The position numbers and the translations under genes are program-made. The notes beneath the pieces are model-generated. The model ran no database searches, had not been told where the DNA came from, and saw nothing but the letters and a program-made list of their open reading frames with translations. Shown in pieces: positions 14,047-37,342 of a stretch of 64,000 nt of DNA; the first letter of the stretch is position 1, and every line of letters starts with the position of its first letter. Source of the DNA: Chloroflexota bacterium (GTDB lineage: Bacteria > Chloroflexota > Anaerolineae > Anaerolineales > Villigracilaceae); the NCBI GenBank assembly GCA_016234495.1, contig JACRBI010000007.1, positions 62,001 through 126,000 on the forward strand, read 5' to 3'.

Positions 14047-14724
14047 TTATCTTGGAATGCGGAGGTTGGAAAACGACATGTCAAGAAGTTCACCCGTCTC
14101 AACGTAGATCGTCCGCTCGCAAATATTTGTCACACGGTCGGCGGCGCGTTCCAGGTTGTGTGCCACCCAAAGCAGGTAATTGGCGCGGTCCGTGTTATTT
14201 GCATCGCGAATGACCGAGTTGATCAACTCGGAATAAACCTTCCGATACATTTCGTCAATAATATCATCATCGGCGATAATGCGGGCTGCGAGGGGCGAAT
14301 TCCGTTGAATGAACGCAGTCATCGCGCGGTGCAGCATATCCGCAGCGCTGACGCCCATATCATAAGTGGAGCTCAATAAGCGTTGAATATTATTGCCTTC
14401 CGAAATCAGGTTAATGCGGGCAATTGTTTTGGCGTAATCGCCGATCCGCTCCAATTCGGTGCAAATATTCAACGCGGAAGCCAGAAACCGCAGGTCAAAC
14501 AATACCGGTGCCTGTGTCGCAATCGTAACGATGATCTGCCCTTCCAAGTCAAATCGTTTTGCATTGATCTGCGCATCGTTGTCGTAAATACTGCGGGATT
14601 TTTCCAGGTCGTGGTCTTTTAGCGCGGCCACAGATTCGATCAGGGCGGTTTCCACCAGGCTGCTTAATATCAGCAGGCCGTCGCGAATTAATTGGAGGTC
14701 ATGGTCAAGGCTTTTACGTGGCAT
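14047..14724 (-). CDS. phoU: PhoU phosphate-signalling protein, copy 1
   Basis: 225 aa with two PhoU repeats. Each has the E/D-x3-RIGDYAK / E/D-x3-RAADR signature: LERIGDYAKTIA and LERAADRVTNIC, the metal-binding three-helix units. PhoU links Pst activity to PhoR. The ATG at 14724 with AAGAG upstream is preferred over a TTG at 14757. It is the first gene of the polyphosphate operon and sits below a Pho-box array shared with the divergent gene at 14949. A second phoU is at 23002. Confidence 0.9.
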   Translation of the reverse strand: MPRKSLDHDLQLIRDGLLILSSLVETALIESVAALKDHDLEKSRSIYDNDAQINAKRFDLEGQIIVTIATQAPVLFDLRFLASALNICTELERIGDYAKTIARINLISEGNNIQRLLSSTYDMGVSAADMLHRAMTAFIQRNSPLAARIIADDDIIDEMYRKVYSELINSVIRDANNTDRANYLLWVAHNLERAADRVTNICERTIYVETGELLDMSFSNLRIPR

Positions 14725-14770
14725 ATCACATCTCTTGAAAGGAACGGGTCTTTGCAAGATAGTCTATTGA

Positions 14771-14811
14771 AGTTAACACTCCCAAAAGATATTGTTAACA
14801 AGAGGTAAAGA
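14771..14811. promoter_or_regulatory. Pho-box array between phoU and the divergent transferase gene
   Basis: TTAACA at 14773 and 14795, exactly 22 bp (two periods of 11) apart, with a weak AAAAGA at the middle register and TAAAGA at 14806. Because GTTAAC is palindromic, the array can be read on both strands: TTAACA and TTAACT, also 22 bp apart, on the minus strand. It may control both flanking transcripts. Confidence 0.6.
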
Positions 14812-14948
14812 AATGCGGGGGCGGAAAATATTCACTTTACGAACTTCAGCCGCGAAGACAATGGGTGGTTAAACAAAACCTTAATGCGCTGTTCCCAGTG
14901 ACTTAATACACGGTTGCTACACTTGGAGGAAAAGTTTTGGAGCAGCGG

Positions 14949-15977
14949 ATGGGAAACATTCTGTTTATATGCGGGTCGCTTAATCAGACGACTCAAATGC
15001 ACAAGATCGCAAGCCATTTGATGAAGGATCATGATTGTTATTTCACTCCCTATTATGGAGACGGCATCGTAAGGCTGGCAGCCAGGCAAGGCTGGCTGAA
15101 CTTCACAGTTTTAGGCGGGCGGCACAAGCGCGAGACAGAAGAATATCTTTCCCGCCACAACTTGAAAGTTGACCTGCGCGGCGAGGCTCGTTCCTACGAT
15201 CTGGTGGTCACCTGCTCCGACCTGATAATCCAGAATAATATCCGCAACAAACGGGTGATCCTTGTCCAGGAAGGAATCACTGAACCAGAGAGCATCATGT
15301 TCCACCTGGTAAAATGGCTGAAACTCCCCCGCTACTTAGCCAATACCTCCACCAATGGGCTATCCAACGAGTACGATATATTTTGCGTGGCGTCTGAGGC
15401 ATATGCGGAACTGTTCGCGGACAAAGGCGTGCGGGAGGATAAAATCGCCGTGACGGGCATCCCCAATTTCGACAACCTGGGAGCTACACAAAACAATACC
15501 TTCCCATTTCATGGATACGTGCTGGCGGCCACCTCTCCCCTGCGCGAAACTTTTCGGTTCGATGATCGCCGCGCATTCATTCGAAAATGCAGCTCAATAG
15601 CAGGCAGCCGAAAATTGATTTTCAAACTGCATCCGTTGGAAAATACCCAGCGGGCCATCCGCGAGATATACGAACATGCGCCGGGCGCGATCGTCTTTGC
15701 CTACGGTGAGATCAATAAAATGATCGCGAACGCCGAAGTGGTCATCACCCAGCAATCCACCTGCACCTTTGTCGCGCTCGCGCTTGAAAAGGAAGTTTAC
15801 ACAAATTTGAAGGTTGAAAAATTAACCCAGTTAATGCCCCTCCAGAACAACGGAATTTCTGCCAGGCATATTGCCCAGATCTCCGAGCGCGTACTGCACA
15901 CCTCAATGGACGTATTGCTGGCAAAACGCAGGCAGCCTCAAACCCGCCTAAAACGCCGTCAGCCCGCCGCCTATTGA
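14949..15977 (+). CDS. GT-B-fold glycosyl- or glycerophosphotransferase-like protein
   Basis: About 342 aa, family not firmly recognised. The N-terminus NILFICGSLNQTTQMHKIASHL looks like the first Rossmann half of a GT-B enzyme. The second half has KLIFKLHPLENTQRA, resembling the KxHP motif of CDP-glycerol glycerophosphotransferases and UDP-GlcNAc epimerase-like enzymes, then an EVVITQQSTCTFVALAL nucleotide-sugar-type segment. GGAGGA (14925-14930) would also suit a TTG start at 14937. It shares a Pho-box region with phoU, so a role in remodelling a phosphate-containing surface polymer or lipid is plausible but unproven. Confidence 0.55.
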   Translation: MGNILFICGSLNQTTQMHKIASHLMKDHDCYFTPYYGDGIVRLAARQGWLNFTVLGGRHKRETEEYLSRHNLKVDLRGEARSYDLVVTCSDLIIQNNIRNKRVILVQEGITEPESIMFHLVKWLKLPRYLANTSTNGLSNEYDIFCVASEAYAELFADKGVREDKIAVTGIPNFDNLGATQNNTFPFHGYVLAATSPLRETFRFDDRRAFIRKCSSIAGSRKLIFKLHPLENTQRAIREIYEHAPGAIVFAYGEINKMIANAEVVITQQSTCTFVALALEKEVYTNLKVEKLTQLMPLQNNGISARHIAQISERVLHTSMDVLLAKRRQPQTRLKRRQPAAY

Positions 15978-15990
15978 CCCTGCAATTTTG

Positions 15991-16029
15991 TTCACAAATT
16001 GTTAACTGTTTCTTAGGTCGTTATTAAAG
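15991..16029 (+). promoter_or_regulatory. Four-hexamer Pho-box array
   Basis: TTCACA-N5-TTAACT-N5-TTAGGT-N5-TTAAAG with hexamers at 15991, 16002, 16013 and 16024, an exact 11-bp phase. It ends 38 nt before the miniprotein start codon. Confidence 0.7.
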
Positions 16030-16067
16030 AGAATGAAGTATGATCTCGATATAGAAATGGAGAGTAT

Positions 16068-16175
16068 ATGGAAACGATCTTCCCATCTGTAATTTTCCTA
16101 TCCATGGTCGTAGTCTTCAGCGTGGACGCGACACGCAAACGCCGCGAATTCCTGAGGAAACAAAAATCCTCGTAA
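16068..16175 (+). CDS. 35-aa single-pass membrane miniprotein, putative Pho-regulon member
   Basis: The protein begins METIFPSVIFLSMVVVF: residues 4-18 form one hydrophobic helix, followed by a basic tail (TRKRREFLRKQKSS). Positive charges at the C-terminal end predict an outside N-terminus and a cytoplasmic tail. ATGGAGAG (16057-16064) acts as Shine-Dalgarno. A four-hexamer Pho-box array precedes it and a strong terminator follows 22 nt after the stop, so it looks like a complete monocistronic unit. The family is not recognised. A small regulator of Pst, PhoR or another membrane protein is one guess. Confidence 0.6.
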   Translation: METIFPSVIFLSMVVVFSVDATRKRREFLRKQKSS

Positions 16176-16197
16176 TTCATTTTTTCCCTCCCCAGCT

Positions 16198-16226
16198 GCT
16201 ACCCGCCCAAAAAGCGGGTAGCTTTT
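16198..16226 (+). terminator. Rho-independent terminator after miniprotein
   Basis: Perfect 9-bp stem GCTACCCGC / GCGGGTAGC with a 7-nt loop and T4. Confidence 0.9.
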
Positions 16227-16227
16227 G

Positions 16228-16277
16228 TTAACGGAACATGTACAATCCCTTAAAACATCCTTCACAAGCCATTAATA
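16228..16277 (+). promoter_or_regulatory. Five-hexamer Pho-box array upstream of the PHP gene
   Basis: TTAACG, TGTACA, TTAAAA, TTCACA and TTAATA at 16228, 16239, 16250, 16261 and 16272, all in exact 11-bp phase with 5-nt spacers. TGTACA is the weakest match. Confidence 0.65.
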
Positions 16278-17951: not shown

Positions 17952-17997
17952 GCAGCGTTCATTCTTCTCCTCCTTAGCAGTCTCTGTTTTCAGAGAC

Positions 17998-18029
17998 ACT
18001 GCCCGTCAGAAATGTCGGGCAGTTTTTTT
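17998..18029 (+). terminator. Rho-independent terminator after surE
   Basis: 8-bp stem ACTGCCCG / CGGGCAGT with a 10-nt loop and a T7 run. Confidence 0.85.
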
Positions 18030-21586: not shown

Positions 21587-22372
21587 ATGCAAAACAACCA
21601 ACCAGAAATCGCAATCGAAACTAAGAATCTTTTCATCTTCTACGGCAGTTTCGCCGCAGTCAGCGAAGTGAACATGAAGATCGAAAAGCAAAAGATCACC
21701 GCCATCATTGGTCCTTCCGGGTGCGGCAAATCCACGCTGCTGCGCGCCTTCAATCGCATGAACGATTTCGTGCCCAGCAGCTACGTCACAGGCGAAATCC
21801 TTTTGCACGGACAAAACCTCTACGGCAAAGATATTGACCCGGTGGAAGTGCGGCGCAAGATCGGCATGGTCTTCCAGAAGCCGAATCCATTCCCCAAATC
21901 CATTTACGAGAACATCACCTGGGGTGCAAAGATCAATGGCTTCAAGGGAAACATGGATGAACTCGTGGAACAATCCCTGCGCGGCGCGGCGCTTTGGGAT
22001 GAAGTGAAGGACAAACTCAAGAAGAGCGCCTACGAACTCTCAGGCGGACAGCAGCAGCGCCTGTGCATTGCGCGCACCATCGCCATTCAGCCTGACATTA
22101 TTTTGATGGACGAACCCGCTTCCGCGCTTGACCCGATCTCCACGCTTCGCATCGAAGAATTGATGCAGGAACTCAAGCAAAACTATACCATCATCATCGT
22201 CACGCATAATATGCAGCAGGCCGCGCGCGTTTCAGACTACACAGCCATGATGATGCTGGAGAAGGACGGTTCGCGCTCCGGCACGGTGATCGAATTTTCG
22301 GAAACAAAACGGATTTTCACCAACCCCAAAGATAAACGCACCGAAGATTATGTGACGGGCAGGTTCGGGTAA
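21587..22372 (+). CDS. pstB: Phosphate ABC transporter ATPase PstB, copy 1
   Basis: 261 aa. Walker [10 protein letters not shown], signature LSGGQQQR, Walker B ILMDEP followed by ASALDP, and switch His in IVTHNMQQA are all intact. The [10 protein letters not shown]-terminus is typical of PstB. AAGGAAG precedes the ATG. Drives phosphate import through PstC/PstA. Confidence 0.96.
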
Positions 22373-22872: not shown

Positions 22873-22987
22873 ATGTCGTTGCGAGGGCGTTAGCCCGAAG
22901 CAATCTCCTCGTTAATAATGGGATTGCTCACCGCACTGGCGCGCGGCGCAAGTGTCGTCGGAAAGAACGCCCTCCTCGCAATGACAT
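22873..22987. repeat. 115-bp palindromic repeat (ATGTC[A/G]TTGCGAG type)
   Basis: The ends ATGTCGTTGCGAG and CTCGCAATGACAT are inverted copies, and AGCAATCTC / GGGATTGCT form an inner pair. The right half contains the 32-bp unit shared with 5554-5588. Similar CATTGCGAG..GCAATC repeats are known between genes in many bacteria. An in-frame ATG at 22918 inside it is not a real gene start. Confidence 0.75.
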
Positions 22988-23001
22988 TTACAAGAGGTAT
23001 C

Positions 23002-23682
23002 ATGATAAGAAAAACTTTTGAACACGAAATACAACAGGTAAAGGATGAAGTGCTTCTGCTGGGCAGCATGGTGGAACATGCCATCATCACCTCGGTGGAA
23101 GTTTTGAAGAAACGCGATATCAAAGGCGCGGAAAAACTTATCGCCGACGATAAAGAGATCAATAAAAAACGGTTCGAGATCGAGAATCAATTAATGATCC
23201 TGATCGCCACTCAGCAGCCCATGGCGCACGACCTGCGCCTGCTGGCATCCACGATGGAGATCATCTCGGAGCTGGAGCGCATGGGTGATTATGCCAAAGG
23301 CATCGCGAACATCAACATCCGCATGGGCGAAGAGAAACTGCTTAAGCCGCTGATCGACATTCCGCGCATGGCACAGATCGGCGCGGACATGCTCCACCGC
23401 GCGTTGACCGCTTTCATAAAGGAAGATGTGGAAGCCTCAAAAGCAATCCCCGCCGAAGATGATGAAGTGGACGCGCTCTACAATCAGATCTACCGTGAGT
23501 TGATGATGATCATCATCCAGGACCCGAAATCGATTGAGCGCGCCAACTGGCTTTTATGGGTGGCGCACAATCTTGAGCGCGTCGCCGACCGCGTGACCAA
23601 TATCTGCGAACGCACGGTCTTCATTGCCACAGGCGAAATGGGCGAGATCAAATCCAGTGACGATGAATTTTGGAAGAAGTAA
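23002..23682 (+). CDS. phoU: PhoU phosphate-signalling protein, copy 2
   Basis: 226 aa, two PhoU repeats with LERMGDYAKGIA and LERVADRVTNIC. It differs clearly from copy 1 at 14047 but shares the three-helix bundle layout. The start at 23002 follows AGAGGT; the frame is open upstream only because it runs through the palindromic repeat. It closes the pstSCAB-arsC cluster and is the natural partner of this Pst set. Confidence 0.92.
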   Translation: MIRKTFEHEIQQVKDEVLLLGSMVEHAIITSVEVLKKRDIKGAEKLIADDKEINKKRFEIENQLMILIATQQPMAHDLRLLASTMEIISELERMGDYAKGIANINIRMGEEKLLKPLIDIPRMAQIGADMLHRALTAFIKEDVEASKAIPAEDDEVDALYNQIYRELMMIIIQDPKSIERANWLLWVAHNLERVADRVTNICERTVFIATGEMGEIKSSDDEFWKK

Positions 23683-23778: not shown

Positions 23779-24537
23779 TTATCCCATTCTGCCTGTGATG
23801 TATGCCTCGGTCAATTCCTCTTTCGGCCTTGTGAACATTTGATTTGTGGGGGCAAATTCCACCAGTTCGCCCAGCCAGAACAAACCTGTGAAATCTGAAA
23901 CACGGGCAGCCTGCTGCATGTTATGTGTGACGATGACAATCGTGTAATCCTGTTTGAGTTCTGCGATCAACTCTTCCACGCGCAGGGTGGCGATGGGGTC
24001 GAGCGCAGAGGTGGATTCGTCCATGAGGATGACCTCCGGCTGGACAGCCACAACGCGCGCAATGCATAATCTTTGCTGCTGGCCGAGGGATAGCCCGAGC
24101 GCGTCAGATTTCAAATCGTCCTTGACTTCATCCCACAAGGCGGCGCGCTCCAAACTGCGCTGCACAACCTCATCGAGATTGACATCCATGCCCATCACAC
24201 GCGGACCGAAAGCCACGTTGTCATAAATGGTTTGCGGAAATGGATTCGGTTTCTGAAACACCATCCCCACCCGCTGACGCAGATTCACCACGTCCATTTT
24301 TTCGCCATAAATATCCTCACCTTTGAGCAATATCTTTCCTTCCACGCGCGTGCCGGTGATGGTATCGTTCATGCGATTCAAACAGCGCAGGAATGTGGAC
24401 TTGCCGCATCCTGACGGCCCGATCAACGCGGTCACTTTTTGCGGCTGGATTTCGAGGTTAATATTCGAAAGCGCTTTGGATTTACCGTAATAAAAATCAA
24501 GCTGTTCGACGGAAAAGGCGGGTTGGTCGGTGGTCAT
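23779..24537 (-). CDS. pstB: PstB-like ATPase, orphan copy 2 with altered signature
   Basis: 252 aa. Walker A (GPSGCGKST) and the switch His (IVTHNMQQA) are normal. The ABC signature reads LSLGQQQR instead of LSGGQQQR, and the residues after Walker B read [10 protein letters not shown] instead of MDEP. It stands alone, convergent with phoU copy 2 and divergent from pstS copy 2, with no permease of its own. It may serve either PstCA pair, possibly with changed ATPase kinetics. Confidence 0.9.
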
Positions 24538-37240: not shown

Positions 37241-37334
37241 GGGAGTGGTTAGGTCCCGGTGGGCTTCCTGGTCTTCAACACCTGTGGCGGGTCGCGTTGC
37301 GGGCCGCGGTGGGTTCGACTCCCATCCACTCCCG
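37241..37334 (+). tRNA. selC: tRNA-Sec (selenocysteine, anticodon TCA)
   Basis: 94 nt. Diagnostic points: 8-bp acceptor stem GGGAGTGG / CCACTCCC, extended 6-bp D-stem AGGTCC / GGGCTT with a tiny loop, anticodon loop CTTCAAC with TCA, long variable arm with GCGG/CCGC and CGC/GCG pairs, T-arm around TTCGACT, discriminator G. One T-T mismatch lies in the anticodon stem. CCA is not encoded (the genome reads CCT). This implies UGA decoding as selenocysteine; selA, selB and selD are not in the window. Confidence 0.88.
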
Positions 37335-37342
37335 CCTATTGC

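Follow-up and report, generated by a model that had tools for sequence, protein, structure and literature searches.

The window, by which we mean the whole 64,000-nucleotide stretch that was analysed, contains a Pho cluster in which a very small transcription unit precedes the genes for a PHP hydrolase and SurE. Direct reading of this unit (15990-16226) located every element claimed in the preliminary description, namely a four-hexamer array, a Shine-Dalgarno (SD) sequence, a one-helix protein with a basic tail and a perfect terminator, together with a -10 box (Table 1). The 35 codons specify METIFPSVIFLSMVVVFSVDATRKRREFLRKQKSS, and a search of the window's own genome returned a single copy of the gene. 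The usual gene order is phoR/ppk-ppx, the small gene, PHP, surE and pst, and the 35-aa frame is indeed conserved in relatives at this locus, between the ppk operons and PHP/surE, where the preliminary description had proposed to search for it.

Table 1. Elements of the small unit and of the region downstream of it (window coordinates)
Feature	Position	Strand	Basis
Pho-type array GTTCAC-5-GTTAAC-5-CTTAGG-5-ATTAAA	15990..16028	+	pstS-array model of relatives; array upstream of 42/43 same-genus copies
Hexamers GTTCAC, GTTAAC, CTTAGG, ATTAAA (period 11 nt)	15990-15995, 16001-16006, 16012-16017, 16023-16028	+	
-10 box TATGAT, 10 nt 3' of the array	16039..16044	+	spacing as in relatives and in the window pstS
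SD sequence GGAG within the leader	16059..16062	+	direct reading
ORF of the 35-aa microprotein, ATG (16068) to stop TAA (16173-16175)	16068..16175	+	conserved frame, purifying selection
CU tract TTTTTTCCCTCCCC, degenerate version of the TTCTTCTCCTCCTT module of relatives	16180..16193	+	comparison with relatives
Intrinsic terminator, stem of 9 perfect pairs (16198-16222), then TTTT	16198..16226	+	hairpins also in relatives
Pho-type array before the PHP hydrolase gene that follows (registers 16227, 16238)	16227..16276	+	hexamer model
Exact TTCTTCTCCTCCTT module 3' of the surE stop codon	17962..17975	+	sequence comparison
Hairpin resembling a terminator, 3' of surE: 7 pairs, loop of 10 nt, followed by a T-run	17999..18022	+	direct reading

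Conservation and spread of the microprotein

A single-sequence search (E<=1e-3) matched the microprotein in 43 of 101 genomes, the window's own included. With a profile built from these matches, and hence partly circular, 44 of the 101 genomes matched at E<=1e-10: 41 of the 57 genomes of the same genus, the window's own among them, plus three that belong to other genera within the family. In a 400-genome sample of the order, matches at E<=0.01 were obtained in 75 genomes; 34 of these are same-genus, 40 come from the family's other genera, and a single one, G066, falls in another family. The microprotein was found at 49 of 80 named surE loci (E<0.05); the surE loci of two named isolates, Thermanaerothrix and Bellilinea, had no match at that threshold. 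Nearly all of the named relatives, which are records of Anaerolineales and of other Chloroflexota, are metagenome assemblies. Chance matches (G087, G045b) were excluded, and G066, G060a and G060b were left out in parts of the conservation, promoter and 3'-module analyses. No strong match was obtained in 16 of the 57 same-genus genomes, and G021 and G015 retain phoR-surE-pstS without the small gene, which, judged by these genomes, is dispensable within the clade.

Most genomes of the same genus have one strong match, with two in G035 and G009. Two or three matches are present in 12 of the 40 matching genomes from other genera of the family; seven of these 12, together with G060, in which the second copy is weak, have one stand-alone copy and one copy ending at the start of surE, the two lying 0.25-1.1 kb apart. 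Directly before surE, overlapping or adjacent to it, 18 other-genera copies are found.

The substitutions are those of a protein under purifying selection. Between the window's copy and that of G051 pN is 0.039 and pS 0.485, pN/pS over all pairs is 0.37, and dN/dS is 0.30 across the 168 pairs with pS 0.05-0.6. Pairwise differences at the three codon positions amount to 0.35, 0.156 and 0.555 in 37 of the 46 sequences, nine rows with a one-codon gap being excluded; third positions vary most, as the preliminary description had expected of a genuine gene. The frame is open in 45 of 45 relatives, but 36 of these also have minus-frame 2 open and 26 have plus-frame 3 open, and the relatives came from a protein search, so that the open frame adds little. 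Invariant in a 30-row alignment are M1, D20, K24 and R25. Judged by this conservation, the ORF is almost certainly coding.

The single-sequence AF2 model is a helix over residues 4-34 (mean pLDDT 88.6), and a hydrophobic stretch of about 16 residues (mean hydropathy 2.51), short for a spanning helix, is followed by the basic tail. On these predictions the product is very probably a membrane protein. Pfam, NCBIfam (searched with the window protein only), PHROG and PDB offered no credible family, and none of 30 members matched DUF1127 in Pfam at E<=0.1; weak matches to phrog_13108, phrog_9201, PF11044 and PF13493, one member each, were discarded as not credible. On comparative grounds this is a real family of Pho-cluster microproteins, nameless in the libraries searched, and the window's copy is an ordinary member.

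The promoter and the start of the transcript

A pattern of four hexamers, repeated every 11 nt, and a -10 box about ten nt further on fits the pstS promoters of 38 of 40 relatives' genomes. A hexamer model was derived from the 35 distinct arrays of these relatives' pstS promoters; it is partly imposed, the arrays having been collected by the very pattern that the 38 promoters fitted. In the whole window, both strands included, the array of the small gene ranks second, with a score of 19.9 against 30.5 for pstS itself, and the next three matches also lie in the Pho cluster, at 14772 (minus strand) before phoU-ppx-ppk, at 16227 before PHP and at 14869 before a glycosyltransferase-like gene. At all five top sites TANNNT follows the array at a distance of 10 nt, for 16227 only in the lower-scoring register 16238 (9.3); the -10 box of the window's pstS promoter (18117) is TATCAT, at the same 10-nt spacing as in the small gene. 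In the reversed window, used as a control, one site scored 22.2, more than the 19.9 of the small gene, and another 15.7; both were without a -10 box at that spacing. Because of the 22.2 the array alone is not decisive; array, -10 box and conservation together are. A Pho-type promoter precedes 42 of the 43 same-genus copies, the exception being the first copy in G009. The suggestion in the preliminary description that the gene belongs to the Pho regulon is supported by these direct-repeat boxes with their 11-nt spacing and fixed -10 box, and Pho control of the gene, as read from its promoter, is highly probable.

A recognisable array was present at 60 of the 98 loci examined, and at these 60 the gap between the -10 box and the start codon is bimodal, being 6-7 nt at 30 loci and 19-30 nt at 30, with none between. 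An SD sequence was flagged at 0 of the 30 short-gap loci versus 29 of the 30 long-gap loci. As a rule, a 6-nt gap after the -10 box places the start codon at +1. Among the same-genus copies with a promoter 28 of 42 are short-gap, and the 27 with exactly 6 nt have, by this spacing, a leaderless mRNA. The window's gene, with 23 nt from -10 box to ATG and an SD sequence, is one of the 14 leadered copies and not leaderless. A further 16 other-genera copies have a weaker, diverged array (mostly of the type GTTTTG-GCAAAC-GTAAAG) and keep the 6-nt gap. In seven stand-alone copies from other genera (L193, L195, L197, L200, L214, L215 and L217) a gap of exactly 6 nt separates TATCCT from the start codon; the diverged repeat of these seven, GTTTTG or GTTGTG, GCAAAC, and GTAAAG or GCAAAG, is perhaps the site of another regulator.

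A module at the 3' end

Between the stop codon of the small gene and its terminator many relatives carry UUCUUCUCCUCCUU, which resembles the 16S rRNA tail; this tail, as read in G031, G025 and G020 of the same genus, is GGATCACCTCCTTTCT, and CCTCCTT is common to tail and module. The window's copy is degenerate (UUUUUUCCCUCCCC) and without CTCCTC, and the motif is also lost in G051. Exact CTCCTC stands at the 3' end of 30 of 43 same-genus copies, of 22 of the 37 other-genera copies not directly before surE and of 0 of the 18 directly before surE. For the 14-mer, the best match outscores base-shuffled controls at p<0.05 in 31/43, 11/37 and 0/18 of these copies, respectively; we prefer the exact counts and the before-surE control because best-match placing of the 14-mer favours conservation. 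The motif also occurs in a hairpin (CTCC in the loop, or CTCCTC) in 15 of the 37 other-genera copies and in none of the 43 same-genus copies. Over 41 loci the predicted mean unpaired probability of the CU tract is 0.72, the pattern having taken a neighbouring pyrimidine run in a few. CTCCTC is present in 7 of 14 leadered versus 23 of 28 leaderless copies (Fisher p=0.067, uncorrected for kinship), which is suggestive of an SD leader going together with loss of the motif.

A terminator scan of the window gave 3 sites versus 2.4 expected in shuffles; since the scan alone is not statistically special, it is the recurrence of hairpins in relatives that supports the terminator of the small gene. At the 80 named loci CTCCTC lies within 40 nt before 27 of 118 strict terminators, 18 of them at ends of the small gene and 9 at surE ends by position, and is missing from the other 91; these loci are centred on surE, and the fraction is no genome-wide rate. 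In the window 0 of 16 strict terminators are preceded by CTCCTC, because the tract of the small gene is degenerate and the loop of the surE hairpin is too long for the strict scan. Within 120 nt after surE the motif occurs in 8 of the 27 relatives' genomes from the same genus and in 7 of the other 22 (15/49, the window not counted); by this count a module after surE is a minority trait, which the window's species also has. The surE 3' end of the window (17962-18022) has a small GTCTC/GAGAC hairpin in addition to the exact module and the terminator-like hairpin. Neither the window's own assembly nor G022 yielded a match to the pattern GGATCACCTCCTT. Rfam gave no match in six loci of the small gene and, in the window, only two tRNAs at gathering threshold. 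A selenocysteine tRNA gene lies at 37241-37336, near a tRNA-Pro gene (36705).

A stand-alone element and candidate targets

Counts of the 11-mer TTCTCCTCCTT are 7 in G000, 8 in G025 and 8 in G022, versus 2, 3 and 3 for the reversed pattern. Its seven occurrences in the window's own genome fall in a stand-alone element (two), at the surE end (one), inside ORFs (three) and in the SD sequence of a gene (one). A 25-mer of this element (<=3 mismatches) is found in 56 of 101 genomes, namely 51/57 of the same genus, 4/4 family members of other genera and 1/40 other genomes; the reversed control gave 0. The order within the element is GCGTCAAG, a TGATAAA-like box, AAGGTGATTTCTCTTCTCCTCCTTT and a GC hairpin, and within the genus the 25-mer hardly varies; the upstream boxes and the hairpin are conserved in an alignment of 33 rows, in which at least one locus is present twice. 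The element commonly lies between a methyltransferase-like/ABC-ATPase-like gene and a dehydrogenase-like/deacetylase-like gene (names from N-termini only). In the own genome it is located outside the window, at G000:C23:202947-202971 and G000:C34:34037-34061, and it was also found at L232, L237, L239, L240, L245, L252 and most of L254-L282. Eight sRNA loci compared with Rfam gave five sub-threshold matches, none on the stand-alone element.

SD sequences that are perfect complements of the module are rare, with matches in 28 of 57 genomes at 34 places, of which at least 15 are the module itself read backwards. Among duplex energies calculated for 14 window genes, with no null model, those of PHP with the 3' UTR of the small gene (-16.1 kcal/mol), of pstS with the stand-alone RNA (-18.7 kcal/mol) and of the glycosyltransferase-like gene with the surE 3' UTR (-20.4 kcal/mol) make these three genes leads only as predicted targets. 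A lipoprotein-like gene with a GTG start and an LAACG lipobox is present at L233 (G000:C7) and L249 (G022:C14); in both genomes its SD sequence, AAGGAGGAGAA, is perfectly complementary to the core of the module, which makes the gene a possible target.

Discussion

Comparison among relatives establishes that the frame of the small gene is coding, that its promoter is of Pho type and that its neighbours are those of a Pho cluster, as well as how the 3' motif is distributed. The reading that we favour, by a little, adds to these a presumed membrane topology, partner and RNA function: a Pho-activated microprotein probably tunes PhoR/Pst, and the 3' end of its mRNA acts, or acted, as an anti-SD sRNA. 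Upon phosphate starvation phospho-PhoB/PhoP would bind the hexamer array and the microprotein would be made, its short helix (hydrophobic residues ~4-19) would insert N-out/C-in, and the basic tail KRREFLRKQK would contact PhoR, PhoU or the Pst transporter on the cytoplasmic side, serving as a feedback tuner. We infer the tuning of PhoR or Pst from position, predicted topology and precedent, and give an action on PhoR, PhoU or Pst an even chance. In many relatives the CU-rich stretch between stop codon and terminator, being like the 16S tail, would pair with SD sites and damp the translation of targets, and a leaderless mRNA of the small gene, which has no SD sequence, would escape its own RNA. 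The case for the module as an anti-SD sRNA is balanced in relatives and doubtful for the window's copy. Because the small gene of the window has an SD leader and a degenerate tract, the RNA role in this species may instead be played by the 3' UTR of surE and by the stand-alone sRNA-like genes. A broader and tentative proposal is that Anaerolineales have a two-output gene, in which a leaderless Pho-driven microprotein mRNA, not itself affected, has at its 3' end a 16S-tail mimic that represses SD-containing mRNAs, and that this gene would form, with the module at the surE end (in a minority of species) and the stand-alone sRNA, one anti-SD network tying phosphate starvation to translation; the window's species would have kept the protein half while the gene's own RNA half is fading.

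The absence of the module from copies before surE that nonetheless keep the protein, the degenerate tract of the window itself and the minority of relatives with CTCCTC at the surE end all agree with a plain microprotein gene that tunes PhoR/PhoU/Pst, the CU tract being only a terminator-side or RNA-processing feature. We consider this possible, if on balance unlikely, as CTCCTC is missing from the other strict terminators of the same surE-centred loci and recurs both in the stand-alone sRNA-like gene and in the hairpins of other-genera copies. A different partner, SurE or the PHP hydrolase, with the microprotein anchoring or tuning the phosphatase of the adjoining gene, would suit the 18 copies that overlap or adjoin surE, but most same-genus copies are separate units closed by a hairpin (G026 is without one), and the gene has phoR and a glycosyltransferase-like gene as neighbours in G026 and phoU after it in G386, G217 and G341; such a partner seems improbable.

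It is very improbable that the unit is mainly an sRNA or a leader-peptide RNA in which the ORF merely serves regulation. The recurrence of the 3' module and the compactness of the leaderless unit (-10 box, ATG, CU module, hairpin) would fit such an RNA, but residues are conserved across genera, with D20, K24 and R25 invariant, and the copies before surE are free of the module. That the CU tract is the SD sequence of an antisense gene (minus strand GGAGGAGAAGAATG in some relatives) is hardly conceivable, and an antisense ORF over the tract was rejected: a CAT lies beside the tract at many loci, the window included, but the frame varies from 0 to 100 codons, the set has no protein in common and a start codon is often missing.

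The favoured combination of a Pho-activated microprotein with an anti-SD RNA has parallels in known systems. In dual-function sRNAs such as SgrS/SgrT a peptide and a base-pairing RNA share one transcript; the families differ from those described here, and many relatives of the small gene have a leaderless start. The small DUF1127 proteins (SDPs of Agrobacterium, YjiS of E. coli), as portrayed in a passage of PMC12501420, bind and can regulate PhoR and are, like the product of the small gene, very small, positively charged and tied to the control of phosphate uptake. Unlike these proteins, the product described here has no Pfam match, has a hydrophobic helix and is encoded inside the Pho cluster, and its binding to PhoR is only proposed. 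At the CIN1 locus ccaF1 is co-transcribed with the CcsR sRNAs (cuckoo RNAs), according to a passage of PMC10253847, an order of small-protein gene and sRNA on one transcript like that proposed here; that system, as described there, has an RpoH promoter and four sRNAs, whereas the small gene belongs to another phylum and has an unrelated protein, a Pho-type promoter and one module. Rfam gave no cuckoo RNA/CcsR match in the window or in the six loci of the small gene, the protein is not DUF1127, and a cuckoo-like placement of the anti-SD motif in a hairpin is confined to the other-genera copies counted above. The ar14/NfeR1 sRNAs have anti-SD motifs in loops (passage of PMC7143759), and the ar14 motif described there resembles the module, which some genera here also carry in a hairpin loop. 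YoaI of E. coli (34 aa) is under PhoR-PhoB control and activates EnvZ-OmpR, and is thus comparable to our product in being tiny and in its control, with a link to another sensor-kinase system; the likeness considered here is one of size and control, and the passage of PMC11853020 concerned mentions no sRNA part. The DUF1127-PhoR, ccaF1-CcsR and ar14 parallels are analogies.

Among the matches listed from the open-licence PMC literature no paper dealt with a Chloroflexota Pho microprotein or anti-SD sRNA. The Chloroflexota gain a defined, conserved family of Pho-cluster microproteins, and a candidate sRNA seed common to three kinds of transcript. Should the favoured reading hold, a small phosphate-control protein and an anti-SD RNA were brought together here independently of the DUF1127/CcsR case in alphaproteobacteria, and the leaderless form points to a simple means by which such an mRNA could escape its own RNA. 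We regard the broader anti-SD module as a more surprising lead than the microprotein family.

The surrounding cluster contains two phoU-like and two pstB-like genes (14047-14757, 22918-23682, 21587-22372 and 23779-24537), named from sequence alone. The glycosyltransferase-like gene (14937-15977) is preceded by its Pho-type array at 14869-14907 and has a sub-threshold Pfam match to CDP-glycerol glycerophosphotransferase, which possibly points to a remodelling of the envelope at low phosphate.
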